This document shows, piece after piece, positions 1-63,357 of a DNA stretch of 64,000 bases. Location of the stretch: NCBI GenBank assembly GCA_964017145.1, contig OZ024844.1, forward strand, positions 310,001 through 374,000, written 5' to 3'. The notes beneath the pieces are model-generated. The model searched no databases and was not told the origin of the DNA. It worked only from the letters and a program-made list of their open reading frames with translations. Numbering within the stretch: the first letter of the stretch is position 1; the number at the start of each line of letters is the position of its first letter. Origin of the DNA: Agrocybe praecox. Its lineage: Eukaryota > Basidiomycota > Agaricomycetes > Agaricales > Agrocybaceae. The translations under genes were made by a program, and so were the position numbers.

Positions 1-1
1 C

Positions 2-29999: not shown

Positions 30000-32041
30000 T
30001 TAGGAACTGCAGAAATCTCGCGTGTTACTGAGAAGGGACAAAAACTCCCTTTTGCTCTGTATCTCCTCGATCTTCGTCATACAGTCCCGTGCTCGTTCGC
30101 AACCAACAGACAACGCATTATCCAAATTTTCGTAGTCATTTAAGAGCGACCCCAAAGAAGCTCGGTCGGTCTTTGGGCGTTTGGTTTCCTTATCGATTTT
30201 GGCCAATATAGGTTGATGTTTCGACAACGTCACCTCCATCTCGTAAAGTACATTTTTCAACCCAACGATGGCTTCAGATCGAAGTTTATGATTCAGCTCG
30301 ACCATTTCGTGTTGGAGCTGAATGGACCTCTGGCGGAGATTGTTCCGATTGTTGAACGACTTTAGGAAAGGGACAATGACCGCCAATGCATCTTGTTGAT
30401 TTTTGTATTCCAATTTCTGTATGTGTGCTCCACGTTTAATCATATCGTTCCAGTACTTGGATTCCAGTTCGTTTTCCCGTTGACGACCGGTACTGAACCA
30501 TTCAAGTTTCTCCCACATTGTGGTTACGATGAGGACGTCCTTAAGCCTATTTTCTCCGACTATTGCTTTGAACTTTTCCAAATTATTCATATGAGTCTTG
30601 GAGGCACGATTGTCTGTGATACGATGAAGGAAAAGCCATCCATGTATTGGAATATTCCTATTCAAAATGAGATAACTCTCCGATGGTATTTTCCTTCTTA
30701 AAAACTCACAAGTCTTTGAACCAGGAAGAAACCGCTGTTGCGTCGTAACTGTCGGATAGACCAGGTGTATCAACAAGGACTACTCGTTTGCCTTCTCCAA
30801 GTAGCGAGACGCCAATAAGGCTGATTTTCTTTTGAGTGGATGGAGATAGATTCTGTGCAACTGGTACCTCGAAGCTTGTAACTAATCTGACGAACTGCAG
30901 GCGAGGTCAATATCAACAGAATGAACAAAGTTTGCAATAGCCGTACCGTGCTTTTTCCGGCCCCGGTATGACCCATGACACTGAAAAAAGTGAATAAAAT
31001 ATGTACTTGATCCATCGTCTCACTTACACAATTACCACGTCGTCCGATGTTATTTCCTTTGTTTGAAGTTTCTGTGGATAGGCGACTTTGACGTTTCTTT
31101 CAATCTAACAGAACCTCATCAGATATCACGACGAGAAAAGACGGAAAAAAGTACTTTACCGTCTTCGATATCGTCGTTTTCAGTGCCTGGTGAAGATGCA
31201 AGCAGCGGCTTTGTTCTGACGCGAAAAGGTGCTCAAGGAGCATCCAAGCAGAATCTTGCGTATTCTCGAAGCGCTCACAAGTCGCGCCATTTACGAGCAT
31301 TGCATACCAGTGCCTATCCTTTAGTTTTGCCTCTCGTTGAATTTCTTCGTCGTTGATCTTCAAAAGATCATCCCACATGGTGGTGCAAAAAGTGATATTA
31401 TGAATATGGGCCGCTTGGACCAATGTTTCAAAAATCCGGAATGCATTAACGCAACCCCCGTTCATTCGAATATCTGTGATTCGATGCAAAAATAATATCC
31501 CATGGATCCCTGCGCCAGATGGTCTGGACACGACTTGAGTAAGAAGACAGGCCAAAAAAAATGATTCAAATTTTCCCGTACATGTTCTGTGCCCAGGCTG
31601 CCACGACTTGAAGGATTTCGATGTCTGATTTGTTAGTGTCATTGAAGCCAGGTGTATCGACTAGAACAACCCTATCCCCGTAGGTAGGATGGCTCTTCAC
31701 GCGAACGGCGTTAACCTGTGCTGTACAGGAAACCAGGTTTGGCCCCGCCCTTCTGTCTATTTGTCCAGTTAAGCGATCAATGAACTGTCCAATACGTCAG
31801 TCAAGTCCTCATGAAAAGTTGTATAAGACGACAAAAAATGCAATTTACGTTGCTTTTGCCAGATCCTGTTAGACCCATCACTCTAAGGATATCGTTTTTA
31901 AGAATGAGACCATAGTTAAAAAGAAAACAAAGCCCACATTATGACGATATCTCTGGAGCAGAGAGCAGTCGAGTCTTTCAGGTCTTCGTAAGACATTCCT
32001 TGACCGTCAACGGAGTGTACTGGCATGCTTTTAGTAGCCAT
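30000..32041 (-). CDS. Double-domain AIG1-like GTPase (HRITD class, both modules)
   Basis: Eight exons (minus): 31938-32041, 31849-31882, 31582-31784, 31160-31523, 31028-31071, 30947-30980, 30710-30894 and 30000-30657; 541 aa. Module 1 has VMGLTGSGKSN (Walker A, G1), VVLVDTPGFNDTNKSD (G3), LFLHRITDIRMNGG and FCTTMWDDL at the G4 position. A 44-nt linker exon (KLQTKEITSDDVVIV) leads to module 2 with VMGHTGAGKST, VDTPGLSDSYDAT, LFLHRITDNRASK and IVTTMWEKL. A long helical C-terminus follows. Both Walker A motifs sit on 34-nt exons. This is one of six genes in the cluster with two G domains in one chain. All exon phases close, so the gene looks intact. Confidence 0.85.
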
Positions 32042-33554
32042 GAGAGGGGCGAAAGTATGTATTCGATACGGTAGAATGCGCTGTACTTGAAGCTTAACCT
32101 CTAAGGCCGGAAGCCTTGAGGCTTATCTTGAAGAAATTGGAATCTATAGCTATTAATAAAGTGGCGTTTTCGTGGGATGTGCATACTACCACATGTTGTG
32201 TCCGGAGCTTCCAGGTTCGTTATAAATTCACAGAAGCGGATTGATATCATCACATTCAATTATGTCTAGATATGTTTTCTCTTGTTCGATAGGCGTAGTT
32301 ATACTTGCAGATGCATAGAACACTGGTAGAGCAGAGTAGAGCAGACTCAAACAGAACGTGAAATCTTGAAAATGATGCATTACTTATAGTAGGCTCATGG
32401 AGGAAAGCAAGCGGCTCGTCACATTTGGGCGCTTATGTAAACCACACTGATTCTTCATTTCATCATTCTTGCCAAATTCTTGCTCGCTTCTCTCTTGTCT
32501 TTGACCCTCATTCTTGCCTTTCAAGCTGTTTGGAGTAGCTTCTTCGGGTCCCTAAACAATGTGGTACAACTTGACGCAGAAACCACTGACATGAGAGGTT
32601 GTATGTATGGATCACAGTTCGGACGACATTTCAAACTACAACTCCAACTTTGCTCCAACCCCAGAGTTTTGCCACAACAGTTACTTCGTCCTCGTTCTTT
32701 TGGTGCAACTAAACCAATCAACCAACGCATTGTCAAAAGGTACAGGGAAAATGGAGTATCACCAGTGGTGCCGTGCTTCGCGTGTAAACGTGAGGGTTTA
32801 TCGCTCGGAGGTCAGTGAAGAAATCTGCAGAAATCTTTGAATAGATACATGAAAGCTAAAACATACACTCTAGTTGTAATCTTCTCAGGTGTTTCAGGAG
32901 GTGCTTATCTGTCCAGGAATCACTTGACATACCTTGATAACTCAAACGGGACTAGTGGAGGACAGTGCTTTTTTTATTTAGCAAATTAAACTACTGCGCA
33001 ACACAGCCAATCCATAGCTTTGGTCTGCATGCACATACATGCTCCTCCCTGAGGCTTGAGGCTCGACTAAGTATTTCATCCGCATTCCCGCTTCTCGCAA
33101 TGCCAGTCATAAATTTGCAGAGCTTTCCTGCCCTTTTTCCCTCGTCCCTTTCTGTTTTGTTTTGTTTTGTTTTTTGATTTAACTTGCATCATGGACCGTC
33201 CAGCTACTAGAAGTATGGCGATTTATTCAGGGTTGACTCCGTGTATCTAACACTGATGTGCGAACAATGTGGCGTTTCTGTGTCCTGGGGTGTGCATCGC
33301 TTTCAAGTTTGGGCGCCTGCTAGTATGATAGTCTGTCTTTCCTTTCGGCGGTGTCTAACTCGAGTATCGGAGCCGTCAAGCGCTGCTTATTCGGCGCTGC
33401 ATACATTCCGTCTTTCTGCTATGTTCAAACTATGCCGCTCCGTGTATGTGTATAAAGGTCCGACTGGAAAATACCTTCTCGTCGCGTCCCTCAACCTACC
33501 TTTTCTCTTTGACTATCTCTCACCGAGCAATTGGAACATTAAACCAGCGCTAAT
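32042..33554. other. Divergent intergenic region between two GTPase genes
   Basis: About 1.5 kb between the starts of two divergently transcribed GTPase genes. Open frames at 32480-32818 and 33241-33669 start only at TTG or GTG and show no family resemblance, so I do not call genes. A TTTTG repeat lies at about 33158-33174. Confidence 0.5.
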
Positions 33555-34442
33555 ATGCAGGTCGAAATCATCACGGACCCCACCTCTATTAAGAACACAG
33601 ATCATGTCGTCATGTACTTTTTTTTTTACTGCGACTAAATATGATTTAGTTTTGCTAACGAACCTTTAGCCTGCTAGGCTTGGTTGGTACTGGCAAAAGC
33701 AACGTATGTTATGATTGCATTGGGCCGGGGCCCAGAATTGAATATCGAATGCTCATTACTATCCGCTGTAGATGATCGACATGCTACTTGAATCACCTGA
33801 AGGCCGCAGACGAGCCTCGGATGGTCTGACATCCCTTCCTCCCAAGATTGAGGCTGTCAGGATCGATAACGAGGCTTATCCTCATCCCATTGTTGTGGTT
33901 GATACCCCTGGGTTCGATCACCCAGAAATTCCCGATTTTGAGAAAGCTCGCATCATGATTGAGAATTGGTTACAAAAAGCGTAAGTTCATCGCGTACCTC
34001 CCAGTTTCCACAACTTACCTATCTTGTATGCTCATATAGGAAAAACATCAATTCATCGTCCTTAGGAGTGCTCTATTTCCACAGAATCACGGACAGACCC
34101 GTTGACGAAAAGGCCTTCCAGGTCTTGGACAAATTTCTCAAACCACGCAGCGTGAAGAACGTCGTTTTCATCACAACAATGTGGAGCTCTGCGGCCAATG
34201 GCGGAGATGAAACTAGCGCAGAAAAAGAGCTCGAAACGAAGTATTGGCGAAAACACATCAAGAAAAACGCTCTGGTCAAGAGATTCAATCCAAATGATTT
34301 CACAACCGCGTGGGAGATCATCGGTTCCGTTATCACTAATAGTAACAAGGCGAATGAGAATCGTTCGGGAGGCAATAACATCATAGGATGGTTGACTTCC
34401 AATGTTGGCAGATGTGGGACTTCGGTGAGCACTGAGGCGTAG
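33555..34442 (+). CDS. Short AIG1-like GTPase (HRITD class, single domain)
   Basis: Exons 33555-33613, 33670-33703, 33772-33980 and 34040-34442 give 234 aa. G1 is LLGLVGTGKSN on a 34-nt exon, G3 is IVVVDTPGFDHPEIPDF, and the fourth exon has VLYFHRITDRPVDEK and VFITTMWSSA. The DTPGF motif lacks the usual following D-T-x-x-x-D. The C-terminus stops soon after the G domain (NNIIGWLTSNVGRCG), so it lacks the long helical tail of its relatives. Confidence 0.82.
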
Positions 34443-34802
34443 GAAGGTATTGCGCAAATTGTAGTATTAAACGCTGGTCGGTCTTATTTGTATATATGTT
34501 TACTTATCTATTTTAGTATGCTGTTTACTCGTACCTGAAACTCAAATTGTGTTCAACAAAACCTGCTTGATCCTGGTCGTTGTATGATATAAATTGGCAA
34601 TGAATTGTGAAGAATAATATTAATAATGTGCAAGAGGTTGCGACAGGTATATAACGCGTGTAAATTAGTATGTGATAGTCGTGTAAGGATCATGAGGAAA
34701 CTGGTCAGAGCTTCGATATGTTACAAAATAGGTCAACGTTATGGGCCACCCAGCCCACACGGGGTGTCTAGAATACAAATCTAGTGAGTAATCGGGTCAG
34801 TG
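34443..34802. other. Intergenic, convergent 3' flanks
   Basis: AT-rich 3' flanks of the convergent GTPase and ATG15 genes. Nothing else seen. Confidence 0.5.
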
Positions 34803-36406
34803 TCAATGGCATCGCGAGTTCGTGAGCAGGCTTTTATTCCTGAAGTGGCCGAATTCCCAGTTGAAACAGTCCTGAGGTGATTATGGGCATAATGCATTTT
34901 CAAGAAGAGAAAGACAATCACGTACTGTGCAGACACCATCAACACCCTCTACTTCGTATGCTGGCTTGGCTATTGGAACTTCTCGATACCGCCCCTTGTC
35001 TTCACTGCCATCCGGTTCGCCGCCACGACGTCGCCATCCCCATCTAAGGGCAGAAAGCCAGCCATGTCCTGTCTCCTCCTCTTCCTCGCCATTGAACTCG
35101 TCTTTCCAGTCACTATTGTCAGAAAGCAGCCGGTCCACGACCAATTTAATGCCATGATTTCGGATATCGACAGACCATCCAAGTTTCTGAATGGTGTCGT
35201 ACAGAATGACTCGACCATTATGACAGCGAGTCTCGAGGGCAAAGCCCCCGATGGCACACAAGGAGGTTACTCCAGTGCATGTACCCATAGGAATAGGCTA
35301 AGTAAGAAATAAGTACCGTTTTATATTTTCGAAGAGGTTTGGGACGCACGTCTGCAGTATTGTATACATGAACGATATGGTCCATTGAAGGCTGGCAAAT
35401 AATATATATGTTCGATAAATTTGGTTGTAGATCGATAAATACGCACTGGTCGAGGTAGATGCAATCTCTGAGATGCCAACCTTTCAGCTGGAGACTCAAA
35501 GGCAACAACTGGCACTCCAAAAGTAGCTCCAATGAGCGAAGACAGGCCACCACCTAATGAGTGGCCAGTCAACCAAATGTTGGCATTTGGATACATGTAA
35601 GTGACATTATTGTAGAGATTCTGCAGGGTGTTCCATTTCAGTCAACACCTCAGCAGTGTCGGAAAAGGACTTACCAAACCAAAGGGATAAAATAGGCCTT
35701 CATCTTTCAGTGCCTCCTCAACACAATCCGTCTCGCAACGATAGCCGCCTTCGTAACAATTGCAAACAGGCGACCAGGTAGGTCCGACACGCGCGCAGCA
35801 ACACGAGAACAGAATATTATCGTTCTTCTTGTCCTTTCCAACCGTAGAACCACCACCACCGACTAACCATCCTGCAGAAGTGCCTTTGATAGAGATCACA
35901 ACGGTCGAATTGTCGTTAGAAACAAATATATGACCTCTCATTCCATCATCCTCCGGCTGCCAACCGTACGAGTCTGAGCTCCACTCATCCGAAAGGTCGT
36001 ACCACTCGCTGACGGTCTTGTTGTCTGCAGCATATGTATTAAATGCCATCTTGCCCATCATGAGCAATGTACTGCGTTTTGTGACATCCGGAGCGGCCAC
36101 ATCCCAGTCTTGCCACTGCACGCTTGGAGTTATTCCACTTTGTCGGTTTAGTCTAGCTGCGTGAAACGTCGCGAGAGATTCTGGACGTGGTACCCTAGAT
36201 TTTCTCTTCTGGACAGTGAATTGTGTTTCCACATCCGAAAACGACGCTGCTGGATTTAAGTCTGAGAATATGACTCGAGAAGTGTTCGTCACTGCATGTT
36301 GATGGCGCAATTGAAATGTAAGAGAGGATTCGCTGGACTCCGTGATAGTATTAGACCACAGTAAAGTGCTTAAAAGACCATGTAGTGTGGCAGGCAAGAA
36401 CAACAT
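34803..36406 (-). CDS. ATG15: Autophagy lipase Atg15 (class 3 lipase)
   Basis: Exons (minus) 35675-36406, 35447-35620, 35350-35391, 34926-35297 and 34803-34871 give 462 aa. The N-terminus MLFLPATLHGLLSTLLW is a signal-anchor. The lipase core has VVISIKGTSAG, then WLTGHSLGGGLSSL with the catalytic Ser, then FESPAERLA. The HVYNTADPIPMGTCTGV and GGFALETRCH motifs and the end CTDCFNWEFGHF are characteristic of Atg15, which breaks down autophagic bodies and intravacuolar vesicles. It is the only gene inside the 33-kb GTPase cluster that is not a GTPase. Confidence 0.93.
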
Positions 36407-36634
36407 GGTTGAGCGCTAACGGTGGCACACTGCTTGAAGCGGAAGACCTTGACCACCTTGACTTGGCGTTGCTGCTGATCAGTTCACGTGTAACGTTGCC
36501 ATATTTAGTAAACCACATTAACCTGGGCGGCCCATTCTCATGATCGTCTTTTTTCTTTTTCAAGGTCTTCCCCGAGGTTGGCTCATGAATCTATCAATCT
36601 TCATAATCTCTCAACAATAAGATACAGAGACGGA

Positions 36635-38456
36635 CTAAGTAGTCAAAAGTCTAAATAATTTTCCCAACTTCCGCGTGAATGGGATCTTCAATTCCCGAAT
36701 CTGACTGTCCAGTTTCTTGATTTTCTCCGTCGCCTCAGCGAACCTTTTCCAGGCTTCCTGGTCTCCTCCTCCTCGAGAAATCTCAGTGATTATCTTCTTT
36801 TGCGCCTCGAGTATCTCTTTAAGAGTGTAGCGAAGTTCTTGCCCCGCTTTGGTCTCCGGGATGATCTTGTTGTCGTCAACCAGCTCCGATTGTATGGCGA
36901 GGTAAGTGTCGAGTTTCATTTTGCTAACGATGACCTCGATGAACTGAATGGCAGACTCGCAACTGTCTTGAAATTTCAATACATCAGTCCCTCTTTGAAT
37001 CATAGGGAGCCAATGGGCCGATTCCAGTTCATTTTGGTGCAGTTGACCATTCTCTGGGTCAACCCCCCTCCAGTGTGTTGTTCCAATGACGACTTTTCTA
37101 AGCGCAGCATCTCCACAAATGTCATTGAACATCTCCAAATTTCGGCGGGCCGCACCCGAAAACCGACCACTGCTTATGTCGTGAAGAAAGATGATACCTC
37201 CAAGGACCTTTTTCTGGCGGTAACTTGGGCAGAACAATTACACGTTATTCAAATAGGAAATGAGTGTTGACATTGTAAACACGCTTACGATTTTGCTAGC
37301 CAATCAGCCAGTGTTTGAAGGATAAAAGCATCAGATCCATATGTATCATCGAAACCGGGAGTGTCAACCATCGTAATTGCGTAGTTTTGAAGACTAGGAG
37401 TATCGAGGAAAATTGTAACAGATTGGATTACAGTGCTACAGGAGGTCAACCCGTGACCAACACGCATTTTCTCCTGTCTCAGGAGATAATTGATGAACTA
37501 GTAAAAAGGGAGAAAAAAAAAAAAGTTAATCGACTATATCTCGGGGATCGGCGATACTACATACGCTGCTTTTTCCTGCACAGGACATTCCCATTACCCT
37601 ACGTCGTTAAAAGTTGAGGTTATCATAGTAGAGAAGGATTATAAATGGGGCCGCACGGGATAAATATTTCCTGTCGAACATTTACAATGCACTCGAGGAA
37701 CTCCAAAGCAGACAGGCGATTTTCTTCGAAATTTAATACGCGTGCACCTTTGTCAATCATCGAAGTCCAGAAATCCTTGAGCTGAGATTGTTTGTCTTGA
37801 AGAGTCATTTTATCCAACAGGCGTCGCCCTTTCGTTGTACCGAAAACAATCTTAGCATTCGTCGCTTCCTTAGACCTATCTTGAAGTCGCTTGAGTAATC
37901 GCCCAGCCTCAGGAGATACCCTATCCCTAGTTATGTCGTGGAGGTATATAATGCCACCCAAGGCTATCTTCCTAAAATCAGCGTGTAATCAGATTAGGGC
38001 CGTCAAGAACAGATGCGGACTATTACTTGTCTTTGAGGTACTTCAATAGATTTTCCAGTATGATGTCGTTTACCATTCCATCCTCTTCGAACCCTGGGGT
38101 ATCGACTATTGTGAAGACATAATCCTTGAGCGTTGAAATGTTTGTCGGGTAAGGTTTAAGCATAGCATCGTCGAAACTGATTGAATTCGATTCAAACGTT
38201 CTAGTGCAAGGATCCAGTGTAGTTCCAACAGGACAGTTATCCGACTCGAAAAGATGATTGATAAACTGGCATTTCCGTAACAAAAGTAAAGCGTTCAACA
38301 ACTGGCTAGAGTTCGGCCACGAGAAGAAAAGTTCCTTACAGTGCTTCTTCCTGCCCCGGTCATTCCAATAACCCTAAATCATGTCATTTTCAGTTGAGCG
38401 AACAAACAGAATACATACGGTATGAGGACTTCCTTCTGATGTTTTGGTTTCGCCAT
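36635..38456 (-). CDS. Double-domain AIG1-like GTPase (HDIS class); module 1 has a Walker A Lys-to-Arg change
   Basis: Seven exons (minus): 38419-38456, 38340-38373, 38027-38265, 37657-37971, 37565-37598, 37289-37497 and 36635-37223; 485 aa. MAKPKHQKEVLIP runs into module 1, VIGMTGAGRST, where the invariant P-loop Lys is Arg (38346-38348). G3 is TIVDTPGFEEDG, then IIYLHDITRDRVS and FGTTKGRRL. The module-1 exon ends VRQEIFIP and is spliced straight to VMGMSCAGKSS of module 2, with VDTPGFDDTYGSD, IIFLHDISSGRFSG and IGTTHWRGV. The C-terminus has the NKIIPETKAGQELRYTL helix and a basic end. Module 2 is close to the single-domain gene at 45141-46208. Module 1 probably cannot bind or hydrolyse nucleotide normally. 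Confidence 0.83.
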
Positions 38457-39161
38457 CTGGGATTGCATCTAATGGTCCGGTCTTGAGCTTGAATTGCAGA
38501 AATGTGCTAGAGGCGAATGAGAAAGGACAAAAGGCCACATTTGTGATAACAAATGTCATTTGTATCAATAGACACGCGGTTTTCGTTAGCCATGGGTGAA
38601 ATAAAGTTCCAAAGACCGAGTAAGTAATTCAAACCCTCAATGTTCTCGTTCGTGGTGTGAGCCGCTCGGCATGCTCTGATGTTCGTCTGACTTCGAAATT
38701 CTATCCGGAACCCTGCGGCTTGAACTCAGAAACCCCCTTTTGACCACTCCCACATTGTCGTGATCATTTCCCTCCCAATGAGCGTCTTTACGATCTTGTC
38801 GCAGACGATTAATCTATAGTGATACATCATTTAATATCGTGCCAGAAGATGCAAGGGGCATGCTTCCTTACTATTATACCATGACATTGGTCCGATTCAT
38901 CCTCGCTGGAACCTCAAGGCGATACAATGTGATTATGTTTGTTCTAAATCTGTTTTTCTTTTCCTTTCAGGAGGGATCGTACATGAATCGTGGTACCAAA
39001 TGTCAATTACACGCCGCACCTTTTGCAATTGGACGGATAAATTCGTCCTTAACACTTCTAGAGTGACAAGTCGGTTTCACATACCCCGCCTGTCTTCATT
39101 TCCCGCAAAGTCCACTTTTCTTTCTTTCTGTACGGTCAACCGTCGGTCTCGAGTGGCAGAA
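38457..39161. other. Divergent promoter region between two double GTPases
   Basis: No coding exon supported. Separates a minus-strand and a plus-strand double-domain gene. Confidence 0.45.
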
Positions 39162-40969
39162 ATGGGCCGAAGCGTCGAAGATTTACGGGATGATGATATT
39201 GGAATATTGTGAGGGTCAGTATCTTTACATAAGTGTTTATCCAACCATTTTTGCAGACTCTTGGGCCCTACGGGGACCGGGAAAAGCAATGTAAGTGTAT
39301 CTCTTTCAATCCAAGTTGACGCATTTGATAAGACGTTTTTGAAGATTATAGATCTTCTTTCGCAACATCCAGTCAAACGTGCTGATTCTGGATTAAATTC
39401 TTTCACTGCTACCGTTAATCCCGTGAGACTCAAGAATTATAAATCGTACGGAGATCGTGTCATTATGATTGATACGCCTGGATTCAACGACACTGATACC
39501 AACAAGTCTGATGCACAAATACTGGAGCTTATAAGGGAATGGCTTGGAGAGAGGTATGCCCTCGTATCCTTGGCCATCTATATTGCTAGATGTGACTCGC
39601 GACTGTCATAGCTCCCAAAAGGCCCCAAAGATTTTACGAGCAATATGTTTTTTGCATCGTATCTCCGACCCTCGAATGGATGGTGGGAACCTTCGTGCTC
39701 TAGAGATGTTCCAGAAGCTTGTACACGAAAGTCAAACTGCCGCTTCAGTTATTTACATCACCACGATGTGGGATATCCTGGATGGCGATATACCTGAACA
39801 GCGCGAAACACATCTCAAAAAAAAATACTGGAAGTTAACACTTGATTCCGGTGCCTCTACAAAGCGTTTCCACAATACCCAGGATTCGGCAATGGACATC
39901 TTGGATCACGTTCTGGGAGTGATACACAACAAAAACGAACCAATTACCTTCTCCATTTACAACACTATGATGGCTTATTCAAGCGACCCAGGTTGTCAAC
40001 CTCGAGATGAACATGAAAAAGTGTACCACGCACAATCGAGTAAATCAACGAAAGTCCTTTTCCTGTAAGTATGCCCAACACCTTCCAAGCCCTCATTTTA
40101 ATACGTGAGTTAAAGAATACTGGGTCAGACTGGGGTAGGGAAAAGCACTGTAAGTAAGGATGAATTGTGTTCATGCAAATTGGTTGTCTTATATATATCT
40201 AGTTCGTCAATTATGCTGCAGGGGAAGATGTCGCTACGGTCAATCATACTTCGAAAGCCCATAATCTAGCCATAAATTGTTTCGACGTTCAACATCCAAA
40301 TCGTTCCAGGACACAGTGCCTGTTCCTGGACACTCCCGGATTCAACCAACCCCATGATGGTGATGATGTCATTTTGAAAACTATTGCAAATTGGTTCAAA
40401 CACAATACTGCGTATGTTATATCCGCTTATCTCATATTTTAATTACTCATTGTGGATACACAGCTCTTATCCTAACATGACTTTTGGAGGAATTATCTTT
40501 CTCCATAGCATCGACGAAAAGCGAAATCAGTCGAATATAGAATCGCGTATCTTGAGTAATATCTTCGTGCCAGAACCCATGAAACATCTCATTTTGACGA
40601 CAGTAGCAACATGCCAAAACAATAAGGAAGACGATCGTCGGGAAGAACTGCGAAAAAAAAACTGGAAACACCTCCTTTCTCGGAATGCCAGCGCATTTGA
40701 TTTCACGAATACGAAGGAATCCGCCTGGGATATCGTGGATCGTCTCCTCGAACACGGTACCCTAGACATTAGCGTAATTCAAGAAAACTTGGACAAGATT
40801 TGTAACGGGCATAAATCGAGAAAAACGCAGCAACCTGACAACGACCTGGTGCAAGGTTTCTTTTCCATGCTCATGAAATTCAGCTTCATCAAGGTGTGTC
40901 GGAGATCTGGTGACCCAGGGTTCTCATTACTGACTATATCTTCAGTTTCTGCGTCAATTATTTGACTAG
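39162..40969 (+). CDS. Double-domain AIG1-like GTPase (HRITD class; module 2 degenerate)
   Basis: Eight exons: 39162-39208, 39257-39290, 39345-39553, 39612-40064, 40116-40149, 40203-40411, 40464-40893 and 40946-40969; 479 aa. Module 1 has LLGPTGTGKSN, MIDTPGFNDTDTNKSD, CFLHRISDPRMDGG and YITTMWDIL. The same exon runs on to STKVLFL and is spliced to the second 34-nt exon, ILGQTGVGKST. Module 2 has FLDTPGFNQPHDGDD and IIFLHSIDEKRNQ, with LTTVATCQ where TTMWD is expected. It keeps a complete P-loop but has lost the G4-like motif. Frame is intact throughout. Confidence 0.83.
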
Positions 40970-50469: not shown

Positions 50470-50744
50470 TGAATCACGTACCTAATAAATTTCAGCCCAG
50501 GTGGAATTTCTTCTGGTCGTTATTCAATAGTACTGGAATTTATTTACGCTTAGTCTCTAGCTTGAAGTAAATGCTTACTGTGCAGTATTCATCGTGCGCC
50601 TGAGGCGATCGTTGGTTAAAATGTTGCTGAGAGGAAAATGTAGGGATTCAATGTCGCTGGGTAGCACAAAAGATAGTTGGATGCAGTACATCGTCAGTGT
50701 CTACGCAGAAAAAGTCCAACCAATGTGTAAAGTTGAGAAAATAT

Positions 50745-51811
50745 CTACACTAATCCTAATAACGCCCGAATACGTCGAGAAGCAGGGATCTTCAGATCCT
50801 GTATTTGCTTAACAATTGCTTGTACGTTGTGTCGGGCTGCTTCGAGTTGCTCTTGAATTTTGCCCTGGTCTTCGTCTTGCGATATCTTTATTTCAATGTC
50901 GAGGAATTTTTTCTGCAATTCCAATGCCTGCTGAAGGGAGTAACGCAACTCTTTGCCCGCCCTCGTCTCCGGTAAAATTTTCTTGTCGATGGCCAGCTCC
51001 TTTTGAATGTTGAGGATATTGTTTATGGCAAAATTCCTAAGAATAACTTCGACGAAAGCCCAGGCGGACGTGTGATCGTCATGGAATTGGCAGGTTTGAG
51101 TCCCCTTTTGTATCATTGCTTTCCAGTGAGCTTCCTTCAATTCCTGCTCGCGACTTGAGGCGTTGGGAGCTCGACTCCATTTCGTCGTTCCGAGGACTAC
51201 TTTGCTCAACGCAGCATCCCCACACATATGGTTGAAGGTCTCCAGATTTCTCCGAGCCGTCCCCGAGAATCGGTCACTCGAAATATCATGAAGATATATG
51301 ACTCCGCCGAGTATCATCTGATGAAGGTAACTGTACAAAACTGTTAGTCGCTCATCTCGAATATCTTATAGAGGGATTGCTCACGAAGCTTCTAGCCAGT
51401 CGGCAATTTTTCGCAAGATATCTGCATCTCCTTCGTATGTGTCATCAAAGCCGGGGGTATCAACGATGACCAAACGATATTGTTGGAGCCCAGGCAAGGT
51501 GTGAATAGACGATGGATAGATTTTTGAGACCACGATATCATGGGTACACGATGTCAATCCATGACCGACGACCATCCGTTCTTCGCCCAAAATCGCATTT
51601 ATAAACTGGAAAAGAAAAGGCAGAAAAATATCGTATCATTTGAGGTGACGTGAACATCATTCTGCGAGTCTTACCGTGCTTTTGCCTGCACCCGTTGGCC
51701 CCATAACACTGGAATTTGCATGAAACTGCGTCAGAAATACGTAGCGGGAATTAAGATGGAAGATTTCACGTACGGGATCACAATATCCGACACAATTGAT
51801 GTCGCCTCCAT
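50745..51811 (-). CDS. AIG1-like GTPase (HDIS class, single domain)
   Basis: Exons (minus) 51774-51811, 51675-51708, 51385-51605 and 50745-51330 give 292 aa. MEATSIVSDIVIP, VMGPTGAGKST, VGHGLTSCTHDIV, VIVDTPGFDDTYEGD, VIYLHDISSDRFSGTARRNL and VLGTTKWSRA follow in order. The tail has KKILPETRAGKELRYSLQQA and ends KIPASRRIRALLGLV. Intact. Convergent with the GTPase at 49301-50469. Confidence 0.9.
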
Positions 51812-52350: not shown

Positions 52351-54054
52351 CTAGGACCTACGCCCGAACATTTTACGAAACCAAGAGGAAAAAAAGCCTT
52401 TCTTCGGGGCCTTGACGGGGTTCGGGTCGGGGAGGAGATCGTGTATTTTCTGCAACTCCTGAACAGCGACACCAAATTCAAGGGGCTCGCGATCGAGGAG
52501 AAGATCGATGAGTTTCCAAGCCGAAGATTGTGTGTCGTCGAAACAGTCCATACGAGCGCCCTTTTCCATAATTTGCTTCCACGTCCGATTTTTGAGTTCA
52601 CTGGCCCGTTCTAGGGATGTTTGGTCCCCTCTTGCCCTGCCCCATTTCGTGGTGGCCATGAGTAAGTGGTTGGTGGGTTCTGGACTCGACAAAAGCTTCA
52701 GAATGATGGTTCCAATAGAAGATTGCGTCCGACTTTCTGTGATATCATGAAGATAGAGTATTCCGCCGAAAGAGACATCTTTGAATGTCCTTGAATGGCG
52801 TATTAAGAGGTCATGGTGGACAATATCATGAAATAAGAAGGCTTACGAGTGATTCAGGCGGTTCATGATTGCGTTAAGAAGTTCTTTGTCCGTAGCGGAC
52901 AGGTTATTAAATCCGGGAGTATCGATAAGGACAAGCGTCGTGAAATCGTTCGGGTGGTCGACAAAGAATTCTCGAATATTTATATCCATTGCAGTCAAGT
53001 TGCTGTTGACCTCCGCATCCTGTTTCCCTGTGGCAGCATTGACAAACTAAAGTTGTCCAAAAGTAAGTTTGCAGCACATAACACGAGCGGAGGAAAACAA
53101 ACCGTGCTCTTTCCAGCTCCAGTCAGCCCCAACAAACTTGAATTTATACATTAGACAATTATAAGATGGACAAACAATAAAACTTACAGGACAGCCACTG
53201 TTGGTCGTACATATAATGCTTGACCAGCCCTTGTTCCCGCCACTGGTTTCTTCAAATTGACTACCTCCCGCTGGATTTTGAGAGGGACCGCAGGTGAGGT
53301 GTGCGATTCAAGGAATGAGTTCACCACATCCAAAGCAGACTGTGAAGTGTTCCAAAATCGCTCGGCCGATGCTCCATAGTTAATCATCGAGCGCCAGTAG
53401 CGGCATTTGAGTTCCTCCTCGTTCTTCTCCGCAAAATCCATTTTGACTTCGTCCCACATCGTCGTAACGAATAAGGCATTTTTCGCAGCGTCGATGCCGC
53501 ATAACTCCCGAAACATACCTAGTACTCGATGTTGGGTACCCGACATTCGGTTGTCGCTAATTCGGTGTACATACAAAATACCGCGCAATGGAATGCGTTT
53601 CAAATAACTAAGGAATGTATTGCGTTAATTAATTGAGCGTAAAGGAAGAGCGTCAACTTACATTGTTTGTAACCACTCGCTAATTATCCCCAGAGTCTCC
53701 ATGTTGGATAATTCTGTGTCATTGAGCCCGGGGGTGTCAACGATTACTATTCGGTCTTGAAAAGTTGAATGGCCTTTTATCCTGATCATTTCGACTTCGC
53801 GAGTGCAGGAGTTCAAATCTGAACCGCAACGGGTTCCTGGTCGGCGGCATAAATGGTCGATAAACTGTTGTGGATTCAACGTCAAGACTTGACAATAGTA
53901 CCAGCCATGTATATGTGGTTTCTCACCGTGCTTTTACCAGCCCCAGTTACACCGATACAGCTTGAAAAGAAATTTTACAAAAATCCTGATAAAGCGCAGC
54001 ATATATTTCTTACACCATAACGATGTCATCACTTCTCAGGTCTTTCAGTTCCAT
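52351..54054 (-). CDS. Hetero-double AIG1-like GTPase (HRITD module then HDIS module)
   Basis: Seven exons (minus): 54014-54054, 53927-53960, 53662-53864, 53188-53607, 53103-53136, 52847-53046 and 52351-52789; 456 aa. Module 1: MELKDLRSDDIVMV, CIGVTGAGKST, VIVDTPGLNDTELS, ILYVHRISDNRMSG and FVTTMWDEV. Its exon ends RAGQALYVRPTVAVL and is spliced to module 2: LLGLTGAGKST, VLIDTPGFNNLSATD, ILYLHDITESRTQS and MATTKWGRA. The C-terminus is short and basic (FFSSWFRKMFGRRS). It is the only protein here that joins one module of each class. Confidence 0.85.
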
Positions 54055-54916
54055 ACTATCAAGCTATCAGAGCAAATGCATCGATAAGACAGTCATACTT
54101 ATTCTTAAATAATTAGTAGTACTCACGTGTATATAATTATCTTTTAGCAGCATTGGTGGGCTCTAGCAGGGTGGCAGATTTTTGGCAGCGTCAGTCGAAA
54201 GTCCAATGTTGTATTTGGAAAAACTCGGGATGGCATTTGCTCACCTTCCTCTAGCAAGTCATTATTAGACGTCATTGAACGCTTTTCAAGCTGATGATCT
54301 TTGTGGTCAAATTCCCTTCTGAGATTAGATCTGCGGATTGGCACGCGGTGTGAACATCGGCGTGAAATGACACAGGCCCATAACACGCTTCAATAATGAG
54401 GCTAATGCATTCATTGATCAAGTTGTGTGACAGTGATATAGTGAAAGGTATGATGTCGATAGTGAAGAAGACTGAAGTGGCCATCAACTTTGATCCCGAA
54501 CTTGGAGTGACCAGCTGCTCACCTCATCACTTCACGTGTATGCATCGTGGTGGAAGTTCCGAAGTCCAGTTTGAGCTCAGCGGAACGTTGAACGCGCGTC
54601 GCTCGATCATATATGCATCATGCATGTCCGGATAACTGAACACCTTAAGGAAAGTAGGATATATCGATCCCATATTCGCGATCTCGTTCAATTACAAAAT
54701 GGACGACTTCCAATTATGATGGTTCACGTTCAAAAACTTGAAATCCCATTCTCAACCCATTCTTCCTTGACATAACGGCAAATAGTCGTGAAGAGTCGGA
54801 CGGACGAAAATTTCTTCAACATAGGACATCTCAATTTCGTTCAGGGTAAGTAAGTTTCCAAGCAAATAAGTAAATCGAGCGTCGTTGAATCTACCGTACA
54901 GAACAAGTTTGATACT
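54055..54916. other. Divergent promoter region between two GTPase genes
   Basis: No supported gene. The last about 20 bp before 54917 match the sequence before 60467, showing that the duplicated unit includes upstream sequence. Confidence 0.5.
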
Positions 54917-56135
54917 ATGGACGAGAGCGCAAAAACTGATAAGAGTAGGATTCTTCAAAGTGGGATGCCATTCAGGCTAACATCTGGTCTTTAGAGCTAA
55001 ATCAAAATCCAGCCGCTTCAATTACTACTAAGTTTGTAAAAACTTTCAAAAGAGTTGAAAAACTAAAGGCTGACGATATGATAATTGTGTATGTATTTTT
55101 CGACTTCGTAGAACGACAGTTAACATTTTTACAGCTTCATGGGACCGACAGGGTCTGGTAAAAGCAATGTAGGACTGCCTTTCTCTTAGCAACGCTTCCT
55201 CTGACCGATGTCCAGCTTATAGATACTATTGCCGGACAACCAGGCAAACGAGCCAATGTTGGCTTGCGCTCTGCCACTTCCGCGGTGAATTCTGTAAGGA
55301 TCTCAACGGATGACCCGTTCTATAAAAATCGCCTCGTGCTTGTCGACACTCCTGGATTTGACGATACAAACAAGACGGATTTCGAAATTCTAGAAATTAT
55401 CAGCAAATTCTTGGTTAAAACGTAAGCTTTCCTGTATATTCGTACTGAATGTCTATCTGAACGATACTTACTATCAGGTATACAAAACATGTCAAGATCA
55501 CTGGGGTTGTGTATTTGCACCGCATCACTGATAACCGCATTGCCGAGACTCTTCATCGTAGCTTCCATGTTTTCACTAAGATCTGCGGAGAGAACGCGGT
55601 GAAGAATGTCGCTCTAGTTACGACGATGTGGGACGAAATTGACTTGGAAACAGGGCAAGAACGCGAAAAGGAGGTTGAAAACAAGTTATGGGGAACGATG
55701 AAAGACGCCCACCATCTACGTTTCGATAATGCATACGATTCTGCGTGGAAGGTCATCGAGGAGCTCACAAATCCCCAGCAAGCAAAGCATCACCCCATAA
55801 GGCTCTCTCTGCAACAAGAAATTGTCGACGACAAAATGAAACTCATGCAGACCAAGGCTGCACAGGCACTCTTCACACCATTGAACGCCATAATAGCAGA
55901 GCAAGATTCCCTTTCTCAACAGGATGCCTCAACTCAGAGCGCGGAAGAAAAGGCGAATACATTGCTCAACGAAACGATCGCCAATCAAGTTGCAATCGAC
56001 GCGCTACTCAGCGAGCTCCACAACAAACCCTCGCCCTTTGGACGTAAAATTTCTAACCAACTCATTAATACTTGGAGGAGCCTTTGGGGAGTATTAATCG
56101 TGTGTACCTGTATTTTGAGCGTCCTAATTTGCTGA
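54917..56135 (+). CDS. Tail-anchored AIG1-like GTPase (HRITD class), copy a
   Basis: Exons 54917-54944 (alternative donor), 54995-55088, 55135-55168, 55216-55421 and 55478-56135. KADDMIIV, FMGPTGSGKSN, LVDTPGFDDTNKTD, VVYLHRITDNRIAETLHRSF and LVTTMWDEI follow. After a helical region (QTKAAQALFTPLNAIIAEQD) the protein ends in a hydrophobic stretch, LWGVLIVCTCILSVLIC, typical of a C-terminal tail anchor. It is a recent duplicate of 60467-61726. The first intron donor that is GTAAGA in the sister is ATAAGA here. The next GT, 9 nt downstream, would keep the frame; without splicing a stop follows. Confidence 0.83.
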
Positions 56136-56460: not shown

Positions 56461-57604
56461 TCAGATACAACGACGGAAAGGACACCGTTGGAGATAACTT
56501 ACCCCGTTGCCGTTGCGCTTGAAGAACAATACGACCCTTCGTCCAAAAGATATTTGAAGTCTTTCTATCAGTTCGGCTGTCATGGCAATTTGCTCTTCCA
56601 TAGTCTTTATCTTGCCGTCCAGCTCTTCTTGAGACATCGAATCAGGTTTAACTTTCGAGAGACTTCTGAGCGTAACAAGCTGGTGTTTCTGTCTGGCCTG
56701 CAGTCTATGTAAATCAGCAAGCAGGGCTTGGGCAGCCTTGGTTTCCTCCAAAGCTCGCCCTAGTTGGGCTATTTCTTCCTGAATGAGAAGGACCATCCCC
56801 GTGGTATTCTTGGATATAAGATTGTGGATAATTGACCAAGCAGAGTGTTCGGTATTCTCGAAACGGCCAAATGTGGCCCCATGGTTGAGCATTTCACGCC
56901 AAAAGTTGTGTATGAGATCCTGCTCTCGTACTTCGCCCACTTGACGATTCTTCAGGAGGTCCCACATAGTCGTGACCAGAACAACGCCGGCTGCGCCTTT
57001 GTCGCCACAGAGTTCGCCCATGATACGCAAGTTACGGTGTGGTGATCCTGCCATGCGATTATCGGTGATGCGATGGAGGTATATAATACCCTTGACGCAA
57101 ATATTTCTCTGATGTCTGGAGAAAGATTGGGTCAGAATGAAGCCTAATATTTGATATTTGAGAGTTTGAGCTTACACTTCAACCAGCCACTGTGATATCA
57201 TTTCAAGGATCTCCAGATCAGATTTTTGGGTATCGTCAAACCCAGGGGTATCGAGAATTACGAGGCGGTCACTGTAGGCTTCGTGCTTTTTTATCCTAAC
57301 GGCGACAACATTCGATGATTGGGCATGAAGGCCGGAGACAGCGTGTTTGGCCTCTCCAATGAGTATATCAAGAATCTAGACGTGAACCAGTCAATTCAAG
57401 GTGGACAGTGCTGAAGAGATACACCAGGGGCGTACGTGACTTTTTCCAGCACCCGTAGGTCCCATAATCCTAAACGGAGAGTAAGTTTGAGTCTTCGTGA
57501 ATAGATAGATAAAAAGTTGAATAAATTACACACGCGATGACGATGTCATCCCCCTTAAGTTTGTGAGCGCTTTCCACGACTTCGTGCTCATAAGAGGTAG
57601 ACAT
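56461..57604 (-). CDS. AIG1-like GTPase (HRITD class, single domain)
   Basis: Exons (minus) 57534-57604, 57436-57469, 57176-57375 and 56461-57115 give 319 aa. MSTSYEHEVVESAHKLKGDD leads to IVIA-IMGPTGAGKSH; the residue after GKS is His. VILDTPGFDDTQKSD, IIYLHRITDNRMAGSPHRNL and LVTTMWDLL follow. The tail has LEETKAAQALLADLHRLQ, a coiled coil and RLQISFGRRVVLFFKRNG. A last intron may replace the final 12 residues. The relic at 1977-2390 resembles this gene most. Confidence 0.87.
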
Positions 57605-58432: not shown

Positions 58433-60313
58433 ATGATGCAGTACGAGAACATTCTTGAACCAAGCGACTTGAAAAGCGACGACTTGATTATCCTGTGAGT
58501 ATGCTTGCTCGAGCTGAGATTCAAGAGAAATAATCGCGAAGCGCAATTGGGCTCTTAAGGCTCATGGGACCATCGGGGGGAGGAAAGACGCATGTATGTG
58601 GCCATATTATTCCTATATGTCATCTATTAAAACAAAACAGATCATAAACAAATTCACAAATTGTCCCAATCAACCTTCGTCAAGCGTTTTGGTTTCATAT
58701 ACGTCACAAGTAACTGCTACCAGGATCAAAGCCCATCCCAAATTCAATGATCGTGTAGTCCTGGTAGATACCCCAGGCTTCGATAATACAGAGATGACCG
58801 ATATCCAAATCCTAGAATTGATTGAACACTGGTTGGTAAACATATAAACTGACATTCGTGCTTTGGAATCTGATCCATTTTTTACGCAGGCTTTCCTCAG
58901 ATAAACGCCTTTCTGGAATATTGTATGTCGATCAAATCTTCAATACTCGGCCCAGCGGCGCTCGCATTCTTAGGATGCATATGCTTCGAGAGTTCTGCGG
59001 CATGCATGCTGCGAAGAATCTTGTTTTTGTAACGACGATGTGGGATAATCCTCACGCTGGTGCGATAAACGTCGAGTGGGAGCGGCAACACAAGGAATGG
59101 ATTGCAGGATTGGTCATTCGTGGTGCGAAGTATACCAGGTTTCTCAATACATCGACTAGCGCTGTGAAGATTATCGAAGATTTGCTTCGTACACATCACG
59201 ACTCACCCATTATGCTCCAGGATATAAGCTCCATCCGAAGTCTGTCCCAACCATTCATACATTGTGAAAACCTCGACAATCCTACAGATCTCACAAAAGA
59301 CGATATAGTCATTGTGTAAGCGTCCATTTTTTTGTTGTCTTCTTCCGTCTAGTTGTTCAAATAATGGACTTTAAACAGGGTAATGGGTCCTACCGGAACA
59401 GGAAAAAGCAACGTGGGTTTTCTTTTCTTTTTTTGAAAAACTCTGTACCAGCAAATGACACTTTCTGACATGCATACCAGTTCATAGATCAACTCACTGG
59501 CCTGCCAAACAAACGATCAGGCTCTACTCTTACCTCGTGGACAACTGATGTTGGCGCAGTACGGATACACAATCACGTAATTTACGAGAATAAAATCGTT
59601 ATAGTCGATACTCCAGGCCTAAACGACACCAACAAATCGGACGAGGAAGTTATTCGAGTCATTGTGACCTGGCTACAGGCTATGTAAGATCAGATATTTT
59701 TGACTTTATGAGATGGCCCATTAATGCAACCTACCTTATAGAGTCAAAAACGGTGCTTCCGTCCATGCAATCGTATACTTGCACCGAATAACGGATGTGC
59801 GAATGGCAGGTGGATTTGAACAGTTCGAGAACTTTTTCGGACAAGGCAATCCGCGGCATGTTTTTCTCGTGACAACGATGTGGGACGAGCTTATCACAAT
59901 GGAAATAGGCGCTAAACGCGAGCAGGACCTTTCAGGGACCTGTTGGAAATCAATGATCAATGGCGGTGCATCTATGTACAGATTTCAAAACTCGCTTCAT
60001 TCTGCTCGACAGCTTTTGGCCAACATACTAATTAAACTGCTCGATCGCGATTCTGAGAGAAAGAATCAATGGAACTTGTTTATGGCTAGGCCCCAGGAGT
60101 CTGAGGATCACTCCGATATGATGGCAAAGTAATTCCTCCGTTCATTCAGTGGCAGCAATAACAAAATGATGAAAACACAGGTTGGGTACAAACCAAAATG
60201 CAACCACTAGGATTGACTTAGATGATATCGAATTACGTGGGGTGCAACCTCCCCTCACCGTGTACGTACCCAACTGCAGATATCACTTGCTTCGACATCT
60301 TATTATACCATAA
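58433..60313 (+). CDS. Double-domain AIG1-like GTPase (HRITD class, both modules)
   Basis: Exons 58433-58494, 58560-58593, 58641 to about 58838, 58890-59315, 59379-59412, 59481-59683, 59742-60128 and 60181-60313. Module 1: KSDDLIIL, LMGPSGGGKTH, VLVDTPGFDNTEMTD, ILYVDQIFNTRPSG (HR of the box lost) and FVTTMWDNP. The same exon continues LTKDDIVIV and joins module 2: VMGPTGTGKSN, VIVDTPGLNDTNKSD, IVYLHRITDVRMAGG and LVTTMWDEL. The third intron donor of module 1 is AT where paralogues have GT; an in-frame weak donor (GTTGGT) lies nearby at 58839. The C-terminal 45 residues are unlike the other copies. Confidence 0.8.
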
Positions 60314-60466
60314 ACGTTGCTAGCTCCTTGACCACTAGCAATCAATATCAACCACTTTCATCTCTCGAAGAACATCACAAAAATAAATCTCTCTCGGTAT
60401 ATCAATTTTAATTTGACCCCCATTGTAGCAGCATTAACAAGTGCCGTACAGAACAGGTCTCATACT

Positions 60467-61726
60467 ATGGCCCAGAGCTCAAAAACTGGTAAGAGTAGAA
60501 TTTTCAAAGGTGGGATGACGTTCACGCTAACATCTTCTAGAGAATGACAATACGCCGAAGTCACCTTCCAACGAGGGCCCAAATCAAACACCAGTCCCTT
60601 CGATTATTGTCAAAGGAACGAGGACTATCAAAAAATTCGATGGGCTAAAGGAGGATGATATGATAATTCTGTCCGCATCTTTTCAGCTCTGAAGAACGGC
60701 TGGAGATACTTATTTCACATTTTTTACAGCTTTATGGGACCGAACAAGTCTGGTAAAAGCAATGTGGGCCGACATTTCTCCCAGCGACGCTTGCTTTCTG
60801 ACAAATTTACAGCTCATAGACACTATCACCGGACAACCAGGCAAACGAGCCAATATTGGCCTGCTCTCTACCACTTTCGTAGTGAATTCTGTAAGGATCT
60901 TAACAGACGACTCGTTCTATAAAAGTCGCCTCGTGCTTGTCGACACTCCTGGATTTGGTAATACAAACAAGACGGATTTCGAAATTCTAGAAATTATCAG
61001 CAAATTCTTGGTTACAACGTAAGCCCTCCTGTTTAATCGTGCTGAATATCTATCTGAACGACACTTATCAGGTATGCAAAACATGTCAAGATCACTGGGG
61101 TTGTGTATCTGCACCGCATCACTGATAACCGCCTTGCTGGGACCCTTCATCGCAGCTTCCATGTTTTCACTAAGATCTGCGGAGAGAACGCGGTGAAGAA
61201 TGTCGCTCTAGTTACAACGATGTGGGACGAAATTGACGAGGAAACCGGACAAGAACGCGAAAAGGAAGTCAAAAACAAGTTATGGGGAACGATGAAAGAA
61301 GCCCACCATCTACGTTTCGATAACACTTATGGTTGTGCGTGGAAGGTCATCGAAGAGCTCACAAAGCACCAACAGCCAGACAACCACACCGTACTCTCTC
61401 TGCAAACAGAGATGGTAAAGGAGAAAATGAAACTCATGGAGACCAAGGCTGCGCAGGCACTCTTCACACCATTGAACGCCATAATGGCAGAGCAAGATTC
61501 CCTTTCCCAACAGGATGCCCCAACTCAGAGCGCGGAAGAAAAGGCGAATATATTGCTCAACGAAACAATCGCCAATCAAGCTGCAATCGACGCGCTACTC
61601 AGCGAGCTCGGCGACAAATCGTCACCCTTCGGCCATAAGGTTACTAACCACCTCATTAATACTTGGAGGAGCCTTTGGGGGGTAACAATCGTATGTACCT
61701 GTATTCTGAGCGTTCTAGTTTGCTGA
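60467..61726 (+). CDS. Tail-anchored AIG1-like GTPase (HRITD class), copy b
   Basis: Exons 60467-60488, 60541-60670, 60731-60764, 60813-61018 and 61072-61726 give 348 aa. KEDDMIIL, FMGPNKSGKSN, VDTPGFGNTNKTD, VVYLHRITDNRLAGTLHRSF and LVTTMWDEI follow, then ETKAAQALFTPLNAIMAEQD and the tail LWGVTIVCTCILSVLVC. The P-loop NKSGKSN and the DTPGFGN change (Asp to Gly) distinguish it from its sister at 54917-56135, which is nearly identical elsewhere. The donor after exon 2 (GTCCGC) is weak. Confidence 0.86.
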
Positions 61727-62265
61727 TGTTGATTGATATCATAATGCAGCCTCTCCGTGGATCACCCACCTCATCGAGATGAAACCGTGGAAATACAATT
61801 GAACAAACTGCAAATTGTTGATTATAGTACCACGGCGTTGAATGCCTATCTTCAATACGTATAAAAAATAAATGTGGATTGTGATGTATTCACTGCGAAA
61901 CTGCGTGGGTTAATTGGATTGGAGTCTGGACGTATGCGATTTACAATTATGTAGTAAACGGCTTTAAGAGGTTCTACAAAACTTACCTAGGTACTAGGAG
62001 CCTACAAATTCCCAATACCCTGTGAGCTAGATATCAAAGTACGCAACCAACACGCCCAAAACGAAGCACAGGTGAGTGACAAGTTGTTTGGGACACAAAA
62101 CCATATGGTCTGCTTTACGGATTCCTCGGATAGTTTCGACCTTTTGGGTTAACTTGAAGCAACTGAATAATATCAGATTTATTTGACCATGACGATACAT
62201 AGTTGAGTTAGGGATGGAAGATCTGCGGATGGTATTATCGATACCAGTTATTATGAAGGTATTAT
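61727..62265. other. Convergent 3' flanks
   Basis: The first about 70 bp after 61726 still match the flank after 56135, so the duplication extends past the stop. Nothing else seen. Confidence 0.45.
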
Positions 62266-63357
62266 TTAAATCCCAAACAACCTGCGTAATTTGCGCGAAA
62301 AGGGAATTTTGAGTTGCTTGACCTGAGAAAGAATTATTTTTTCCTTCTCCTTCAACTCTGCGTGTCTCGCCTGTGCCTCGGGATCGCCGTCATTCGCCAT
62401 GCTCCGTTCCAATTCTGCCATCCTTTTCTGCATAGCTATCACTTCTTTGAGTGTATATCGTAGCTCTTGAGCTGCCTTGGTCTCCGGAATAACTTTTTTG
62501 CGAGTAACAAGCTCTTGTTGAATCTCTAAAGCTTGAGGTTCCTCTGATTTCGTATGTCGACGTTGTTCAACCATATGCCTAACAGCATTCGCCACCACAG
62601 CCTCGGCGGATTCTGGAGTACGATAATATCTCATGACATGTGCGCCTTTTTCAATCATGGCCTTCCAGTGGTCTTCCCGAAATTCGGATTCGCGTTGCTC
62701 TTCTGCACGGTGCTGCCCAGCATTAGATGATGGCCAATTGGTTGTACAAAGAATGACGCTTGGTAAAGCAACGTCCCCGCACATATGGTTGAACATTGCA
62801 AGATTTTTTCTGGCTGTACCAGTGAATCTCTTCTGGGAGATGTCGTGAAGGTACAAAACCCCGCCAAGAATATGTGTTTGGTCTTTATAACTTCAATTAT
62901 ACGGAAATGGAGTCAGTATCATGAACTCCGAGAGTTTGTATTATGGTCGCTCACGCCTTCTTTAGCCACTCTGCAATTCGAGTCAAGATGACCGCATCTC
63001 CTTCGTTGGTGTCATCAAAGCCAGGTGTGTCGAGGACAACCAAGTTGTGCTCTGTAGCTAGTCCCCGTATCTTAACATTCAGAACTTCTACTGGGGTGGG
63101 TTCGCTGGTGCAAGACGATAGTTGGTGCCCGACTTTCATCTTTTCCTCTCTTATGAGCACGTTGATAAACTATTTATCCTGGTAAGCTTTAGGGCGTCAA
63201 TCAAATTGGCGGGTCACATACAGTGCTTTTACCGGCACCCGTTGGACCCATGATTCTGTGCTGGAAATGTTAGAGGACTGGCGAACAATATATCCAGCGC
63301 GGGAGGGACTCACGGAATTATAATATTTATTGGACCTTTTGAACTTGAACTAGCCAT
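62266..63357 (-). CDS. AIG1-like GTPase (HDIS class, single domain)
   Basis: Exons (minus) 63314-63357, 63222-63255, 62955-63169 and 62266-62890 give 305 aa. MASSSSKGPINIIIP, IMGPTGAGKST, VGHQLSSCTSEPT, VVLDTPGFDDTNEGD, VLYLHDISQKRFTGTARKNL and ILCTTNWPSS are in order. The tail has KKVIPETKAAQELRYTLKEV and ends KIPFSRKLRRLFGI. Intact and close to 41873-42997. It is the last clear member of the cluster. Confidence 0.9.

Follow-up and report, generated by a model that had tools for sequence, protein, structure and literature searches.

The DNA examined is a window of 64,000 nucleotides (nt) from the basidiomycete Agrocybe praecox (GCA_964017145.1, genome size 59.2 Mb), corresponding to positions 310,001-374,000 of contig OZ024844.1 (C5), and its right-hand part carries an array of AIG1/GIMAP-like GTPase genes. 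Coordinates without a contig prefix are those of the window. Genes were rebuilt by profile-guided spliced alignment, and the models span the domains and not the start codons of every gene. Between about 30,000 and 63,357, 22 G domains were modelled in 16 genes (Table 1), six of which are two-domain genes. These numbers had been given by an earlier note made from the letters of this DNA, and they were confirmed by the spliced models together with the limits of the array, since the last frame stops at 30,000 and gene 16 has its first ATG at about 63,357. The join between domains is an uninterrupted reading frame in three of the six two-domain genes, and one consensus intron, read by eye, is required in the other three; in gene 1 this intron is about 54 nt long, and domain 2 taken alone is without an in-frame ATG. 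Exon 1 of gene 6, with its ATG, lies upstream at about 44061. Six neighbouring pairs among the 16 genes are oriented head to head. All 22 domain models were open, with no frameshift or internal stop, subject to the proviso that a break could sit inside a chosen intron or gap. The decayed copies described in the earlier note were thus not found among these 22 models, and were confined to the fragment at 2031-2264 and to a frameshifted GTPase copy outside the window (C5:381.6-382.3 kb).

Table 1. Features of the window, with the basis of each assignment.
Feature	Position	Strand	Basis or remark
Gene 1, two-domain (class R + R)	30000..31978	-	models 31978-31205 and 31074-30159
Gene 2, class R, divergent single domain, no modelled tail	33582..34358	+	model; long branch in quick tree
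Gene 3, two-domain (class D + D), domain 1 P-loop GAGRST	36644..38468	-	continuous frame over join
Gene 4, two-domain (class R + divergent second-domain type)	39171..40755	+	spliced models
Gene 5, class D	41876..42964	+	spliced model
Gene 6, class D profile, H-box lost	43246..43931	-	spliced model
Gene 7, class D	45162..46202	+	model; 70% identity to gene 3 domain 2
Gene 8, two-domain (class D + D)	46759..48218	-	continuous frame over join
Gene 9, class R core type	49370..50454	+	model; clusters with Galerina and Gymnopilus genes in tree
Gene 10, class D	50748..51790	-	model; partner in quick tree is Agrocybe pediades P0002 (67% identity)
Gene 11, two-domain (class R + second-domain type)	52456..54057	-	relatives at C5:387-389 kb and C5:548 kb
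Gene 12, class R, C-terminal hydrophobic tail LWGVLIVCTCILSVLIC	55048..56135	+	spliced model
Gene 13, class R	56512..57589	-	spliced model
Gene 14, two-domain (class R + R)	58445..60030	+	continuous frame over join
Gene 15, class R, hydrophobic tail	60618..61726	+	recent tandem copy of gene 12
Gene 16, class D	62269..63357	-	spliced model
Next class D gene, start only, continues past window	63924..64000	+	spliced model
Class R gene, 3' part, gene begins left of window	1..91	+	spliced model
Orphan class R gene fragment, profile positions 151-239 only	2031..2264	+	spliced model
ATG15-like class-3 lipase, foreign gene	35324..36415	-	Lipase_3 in 35324-35638, GHSLGG

Three motifs had been reported to occur 22 times each. 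DTPG (G3, DxxG) was indeed found in all 22 domains; read strictly, the P-loop GxxxxGK(S/T) (G1) was found in 21, the exception being 37,668-38,468 with GAGRST, and the H(R/D)I(S/T) box (H-box) in 18, with HDVS at 47,481 and further divergence at 43,246, 40,117 and 58,445. In domain 2 of gene 4 the usual H-box and G4 are missing. When I or V was accepted at the box position, 18 ordered triplets of P-loop, DTPG and H-box were counted at 30,000-63,357 versus none at 1-30,000, and none was obtained in any of 50 dinucleotide shuffles. Each domain contains three short introns (45-121 nt, mean 59, in 39 models over the loci of the genome): intron 1 in phase 2 directly before the P-loop, intron 2 in phase 0 directly after GK(S/T)x, and intron 3 in phase 2 ahead of the H-box. 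Their places and phases are identical in all 22 domains (19 assigned by program, with a tolerance of 4 profile positions, and three with the first intron read by eye), which speaks for duplication at the DNA level and not for retrocopying.

The domains fall into two classes, both of which occur in this locus and in other mushrooms. Class D has an HD box and a G4 of the form TTKW, from which Asp is mostly lost, and class R has an HR box and a G4 of the form TTMW(D), in which Lys is replaced by Met and Asp is often kept. The classes were surveyed in 322 domain hits, of which 283 had all boxes readable (249 homologous domains and 34 from this genome), the homologues being drawn from two best-hit lists (best 120 each). 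The residue after the box His was Arg in 116, Asp in 100, Glu in 24 and another residue in 9 of the 249 homologous domains, and Arg in 17, Asp in 12 and another in 5 of the 34 own domains. Arg-type homologues carried Met at the place of the G4 Lys in 115 of 116 cases and retained the G4 Asp in 83; among the 100 Asp-type homologues, Lys was present at G4 in 81 and Asp absent from 96, and the own Asp-type domains were more varied at this Lys place (Lys in 6/12). The G4 Trp is present in 242/249 homologous domains, and the box Arg is nearly invariant (237/249 homologous, 32/34 own). Lys and Asp of G4 occurred together in 5/249 homologous domains and 1/34 own domains, the latter being that at 47481, the single case among the 22 of the window, and the canonical G4, (N/T/R)KxD, is thus absent from almost every member.

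Because each class has lost a different half of G4, and because opposite charges (Asp/Glu versus Arg) stand beside the box His, these complementary sequence features suggest pairing between D and R. The further proposal that D and R are obligate partners, and that D:R heterodimers rather than homodimers would form the working two-site enzyme on membranes, we regard as distinctly unlikely. If this proposal were true, the superlocus would represent a combinatorial repertoire of paired GTPases, and GIMAP-type clusters would have grown independently once more, in addition to those of animals and plants.

The array extends past the window on both sides (C5:281.7-388.9 kb), with an interruption of about 28 kb in the left part of the window, and comprises at least 33 domains in about 26 genes and one fragment. 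At least 6 more domains lie outside it, two of them in a single gene near C5:548 kb and the others in four genes on C7, so that at least 39 domains and one fragment were modelled over the genome; two-domain status outside the window was assigned by likeness to gene 11. Genome searches with three different members gave 55, 53 and 49 exon matches and agreed on where the genes lie; the domain counts are lower bounds because each search scored the 50-60 best candidates. A search of this one genome with Pfam AIG1 gave no match, probably because the search ignores introns and the exons are short, and spliced proteins of the array itself succeeded as queries. The isolated class R piece at 2031-2264 (+) is a relic of the array. 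On C7 (L011, C7:786001-796000), two class R genes have G4 TNMWG, not TTMWD, and, unlike cluster members, run on into long charged sequence resembling a coiled coil.

Local duplication and class mixing, both claimed in the earlier note, were borne out by the gene models and the trees, and the former also by repeats between genes. Repeats of ≥60 nt in 29,500-64,000 corresponded to likeness among the GTPase genes themselves, this repeat search being the only one made that bears on transposons. Genes 12 and 15 are a recent tandem pair (82% protein identity, synonymous divergence (dS) 0.24, direct repeats 5.6 kb apart), and other recent events involve gene 13, a copy of which lies about 11 kb further right, and gene 11, which has its relatives near C5:388 and 548 kb. 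In a quick tree, from which the fragment was omitted, gene 10 was joined to A. pediades P0002 with a Shimodaira-Hasegawa-like approximate likelihood ratio test (SH-aLRT) value of 99, and the second domains of genes 4 and 11 with their relatives formed a clade of their own (SH-aLRT 99). In genes 1 and 14 the fused domains belong to other subtypes. This points to more than one origin of two-domain genes, the placement of gene 1 domain 2 being unsure because of its long branch. P0002 (locus tag D9613_003469) lies near 003447, 003448, 003466 and 003470, all of the GTPase family and on one contig. A group of 14 class R domains that appeared private to this genome in the quick tree was given up, because in a better-sampled, careful tree (without the fragment and 8 of the 25 own class R domains, namely long branches and the second-domain type) genes of Galerina, Agrocybe and Gymnopilus fall among the class R genes of the window.

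Selection was examined in 32 close paralogue pairs that share ≥45% identity across 120 residues, with no more than three best partners taken for any one member. The ratio of nonsynonymous (dN) to synonymous divergence was 0.14-0.55 in 13 pairs, and the other 19 were saturated at synonymous sites. In sliding windows along seven pairs there was no sustained dN excess, two short windows exceeding 1 at very small dS. Positive selection was therefore not found in the 32 pairs or in the windows of these seven, and the diversifying pressure supposed in the earlier note is not seen in these values. The locus consists of old subfamilies under purifying selection with a few recent births, and is not a burst under diversifying selection. 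These results bear directly on the idea of a fast-evolving recognition or immunity locus, the copies of which would diversify under selection so as to detect or hold back bacteria, nematodes, viruses or non-self mycelium. The close packing of the genes, a degree of turnover and the mixing of classes would suit this idea, and AIG1 kin act in plant resistance (PMC12845241) and animal immunity (PMC8201404), while an AIG1-named gene is induced when two Rhizophagus isolates share a root (PMC7490403). However, with the low ratios, the lack of sustained windows above 1, and several subfamilies held in common with Galerina, Agrocybe or Gymnopilus, we consider it rather unlikely.

Purifying selection and open frames would instead be expected of house-keeping GTPases of membrane traffic or organelles, whose numbers rose through neutral tandem duplications and subfunctionalisation and which would play no part in defence. 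The paired gene in A. pediades fits such an origin, as does the occurrence in other mushrooms of several members on near-consecutive locus tags or on one contig. The trees, built with homologues from the best-hit lists, are nevertheless not one-to-one between species, and several domains have degenerate motifs yet remain open, which is unexpected for house-keeping enzymes; this explanation is accordingly held to be possible but doubtful.

Family identity was assessed with Pfam, profile comparisons and predicted structures. In the profile search proposed by the earlier note, which covered 10 of the 22 window domains, cut-offs were passed for MMR_HSR1 by 10, Dynamin_N by 5, AIG1 by 4 and Septin by 2; those below the AIG1 cut-off (PF04548, 27 bits) scored 16.4-25.4 bits against that profile, and the Septin cut-off was 26.2 bits. 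Structures were modelled for one homologue per class, P0002 of A. pediades for D (mean predicted local distance difference test score, pLDDT, 88.7) and P0132 of Pleurotus for R (pLDDT 85.0). Searched against the PDB with Foldseek, P0002 gave GIMAP chains (GIMAP2, 7, 4 and 1) as its 16 best matches, followed by mitofusin-1 and Toc34, and P0132 gave GIMAP chains (GIMAP7) as its top three, followed by Toc33 and Gtr1/Rag. A mixed profile, A1 (55 proteins of both classes, mostly D), found GIMAP4 as its best match besides a chance repeat match, and its alignment with GIMAP7 (E 3.6e-7) begins at the P-loop and reaches the helical part, the H-box being set on the LGRYT box of GIMAP7 with the Arg in register, a 5-residue insertion and a sequence of its own. 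Matches to 7rdr, a designed repeat protein, and to designed PPR proteins were discarded as apparently due to chance. The AIG1/GIMAP-like character given to the genes in the earlier note is thus supported at the level of fold. The G domain is followed by about 90-120 residues, mostly predicted helix in the two models, and full-length single-domain members of about 290-330 residues (some are shorter) have the G domain at the N-terminus, then a segment predicted to be helical, and a short tail at the C-terminus.

The profile of class R alone, A2, matched GBP2 and GBP5 slightly ahead of GIMAP4 among PDB sequences. Together with the five of ten domains passing Dynamin_N, and with mitofusin-1 as the first non-GIMAP Foldseek match of class D, this would suit GTPases of the dynamin superfamily, of a fission, fusion or GBP/IRG-like kind, instead of the septin/GIMAP type. 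The GBP/IRG matches of A2 are, however, limited to the part from P-loop to DTPG, the single-domain proteins have about 300 residues with a short helical part, and GIMAP chains lead both fold searches, so that a dynamin-type origin is very improbable. The AIG1 family is defined by five G motifs and the box (PMC12845241), and as almost no member has the canonical G4, the genes are not filed under AIG1; they are regarded as a fungal sister family, the proteins of which probably work like AIG1/GIMAP proteins.

Of 57 class D homologues, 38 carry a basic-hydrophobic motif at the C-terminal end; among 59 of class R the number is 15. Genes 12 and 15 end in a 17-residue hydrophobic stretch immediately followed by the stop codon, resembling the C-terminal membrane anchors of GIMAP1, 3 and 5 (PMC8201404). 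The same threshold for a hydrophobic end was reached by 3 of the 322 collected proteins and by none of 84 newly found homologues of a further search.

Taken together, the array in the window is best read as the central part of an extensive fungal superlocus, the products of which are GTPases of the septin superfamily (AIG1/GIMAP/Toc-like) and would act as nucleotide-dependent, membrane-associated scaffolds, with a probability of about 0.6. Two points weigh against it: geometric re-ranking of the class D model placed YsxC first with many small GTPases near and did not single out GIMAPs, so that geometry cannot separate them from other TRAFAC GTPases, and only the one window domain noted above has a canonical G4. 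Parallel GTP-dependent G dimers are common to septin- and dynamin-superfamily GTPases (PMC4774019), and GIMAP7 activates GIMAP2 by dimerisation and a catalytic arginine finger (PMC8066113, PMC8201404). By the same scheme the mushroom proteins would bind nucleotide like GIMAPs and, once loaded with it, dimerise by way of the G domain. The box Arg, in or close to the dimer interface, would trigger hydrolysis, and the basic-hydrophobic tail, which in genes 12 and 15 is a genuine hydrophobic anchor, would seat the proteins on internal membranes as switchable scaffolds acting in stress or defence. With a box Arg, a helical segment and a membrane-seeking tail, a membrane-bound, nucleotide-switched scaffold is the simplest model; the role in defence is put forward by analogy only.

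The only gene of another kind in the array, named ATG15 in the earlier note, is a class-3 lipase (Lipase_3, 29.3 bits, cut-off 22); an ATG15-like autophagic lipase gene is embedded within the GTPase genes. The class was supported, and the name ATG15 is presumptive. The lipase part 35645-36415 scanned alone gave no Pfam match. Six gaps were inspected for further frames of ≥70 codons, the family search being made for the lipase alone. In the left part of the window, five of nine long frames scanned matched Pfam (DUF1349, eIF2A, a Rad7-type finger, and SUV3 in two parts) and the other four did not; open frames of 724 codons at 18577-20748 (-) and 365 codons at 25608-26702 (-) had no Pfam match at E 0.001.

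Three homologue searches gave 764, 1053 and 1208 public proteins at E ≤ 0.001, of which the best 120 each were examined. Agrocybe, Galerina, Lyophyllum, Pleurotus, Agaricus, Pisolithus, Jaapia, Sparassis, Rickenella and Serendipita are named among the matches listed, most of which are called 'hypothetical' or 'G domain-containing protein', further annotations being 'AIG1-type / G domain-containing' and 'P-loop containing nucleoside triphosphate hydrolase'. The Serendipita members P0158, P0179 and P0219 are annotated 'Translocase of chloroplast', which is misleading for a fungus, to which a role in chloroplast import does not apply. No paper on this mushroom GTPase family as such was found among the open-access papers listed. 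In a survey of NLR proteins, the Sordariales orthogroup OG0000027 was set aside for its overlapping MMR_HSR1, RsgA, Septin, AIG1 and Dynamin_N matches (PMC12258605); since it shows the same Pfam mixture, the family may reach ascomycetes. A link to the non-self response of Podospora was not retained, as the MMR_HSR1 enrichment described there appears to concern the generic family among down-regulated genes (PMC4835503), and 'Far-17a/AIG1' (PMC1854895) is another family by name. With more than 1000 public proteins matching the family, its description as GIMAP-like, clustered and two-class gives them a concrete biochemical question, namely whether D and R pair and which nucleotide is bound, and the locus is where cell-autonomous, membrane-based defence of fungi could be sought. 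Should the GTPases prove to serve defence, animals, plants and fungi would each have expanded GIMAP-type clusters on their own.

Among known systems, the vertebrate GIMAPs (GIMAP2, 4, 7 and 8) share the gene cluster, the G domain with a helical segment, and the box Arg between G3 and G4; some members have C-terminal hydrophobic anchors (PMC8201404), and GIMAP8 has several G domains (PMC4201521), like the two-domain genes here. They differ in sequence (12-22% identity), and the mushroom proteins have a box longer by 5 residues with H(D/R)I(S/T), a G4 of TTKW or TTMWD, and two classes with complementary G4 losses. Plant AIG1/IAN proteins have an AIG1-type domain and are encoded by tandem-duplicated genes, often head to head (PMC12845241) like the six neighbouring pairs of this array, and Toc33/34 are among the fold matches of the mushroom models, but box, G4 and tails differ in both AIG1/IAN and Toc34/Toc159. 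The AIG1-Hint proteins of Glomeromycotina are likewise expanded fungal AIG1 proteins (PMC8778642), but are fused to Hint, of which no instance was seen in the genes described here.

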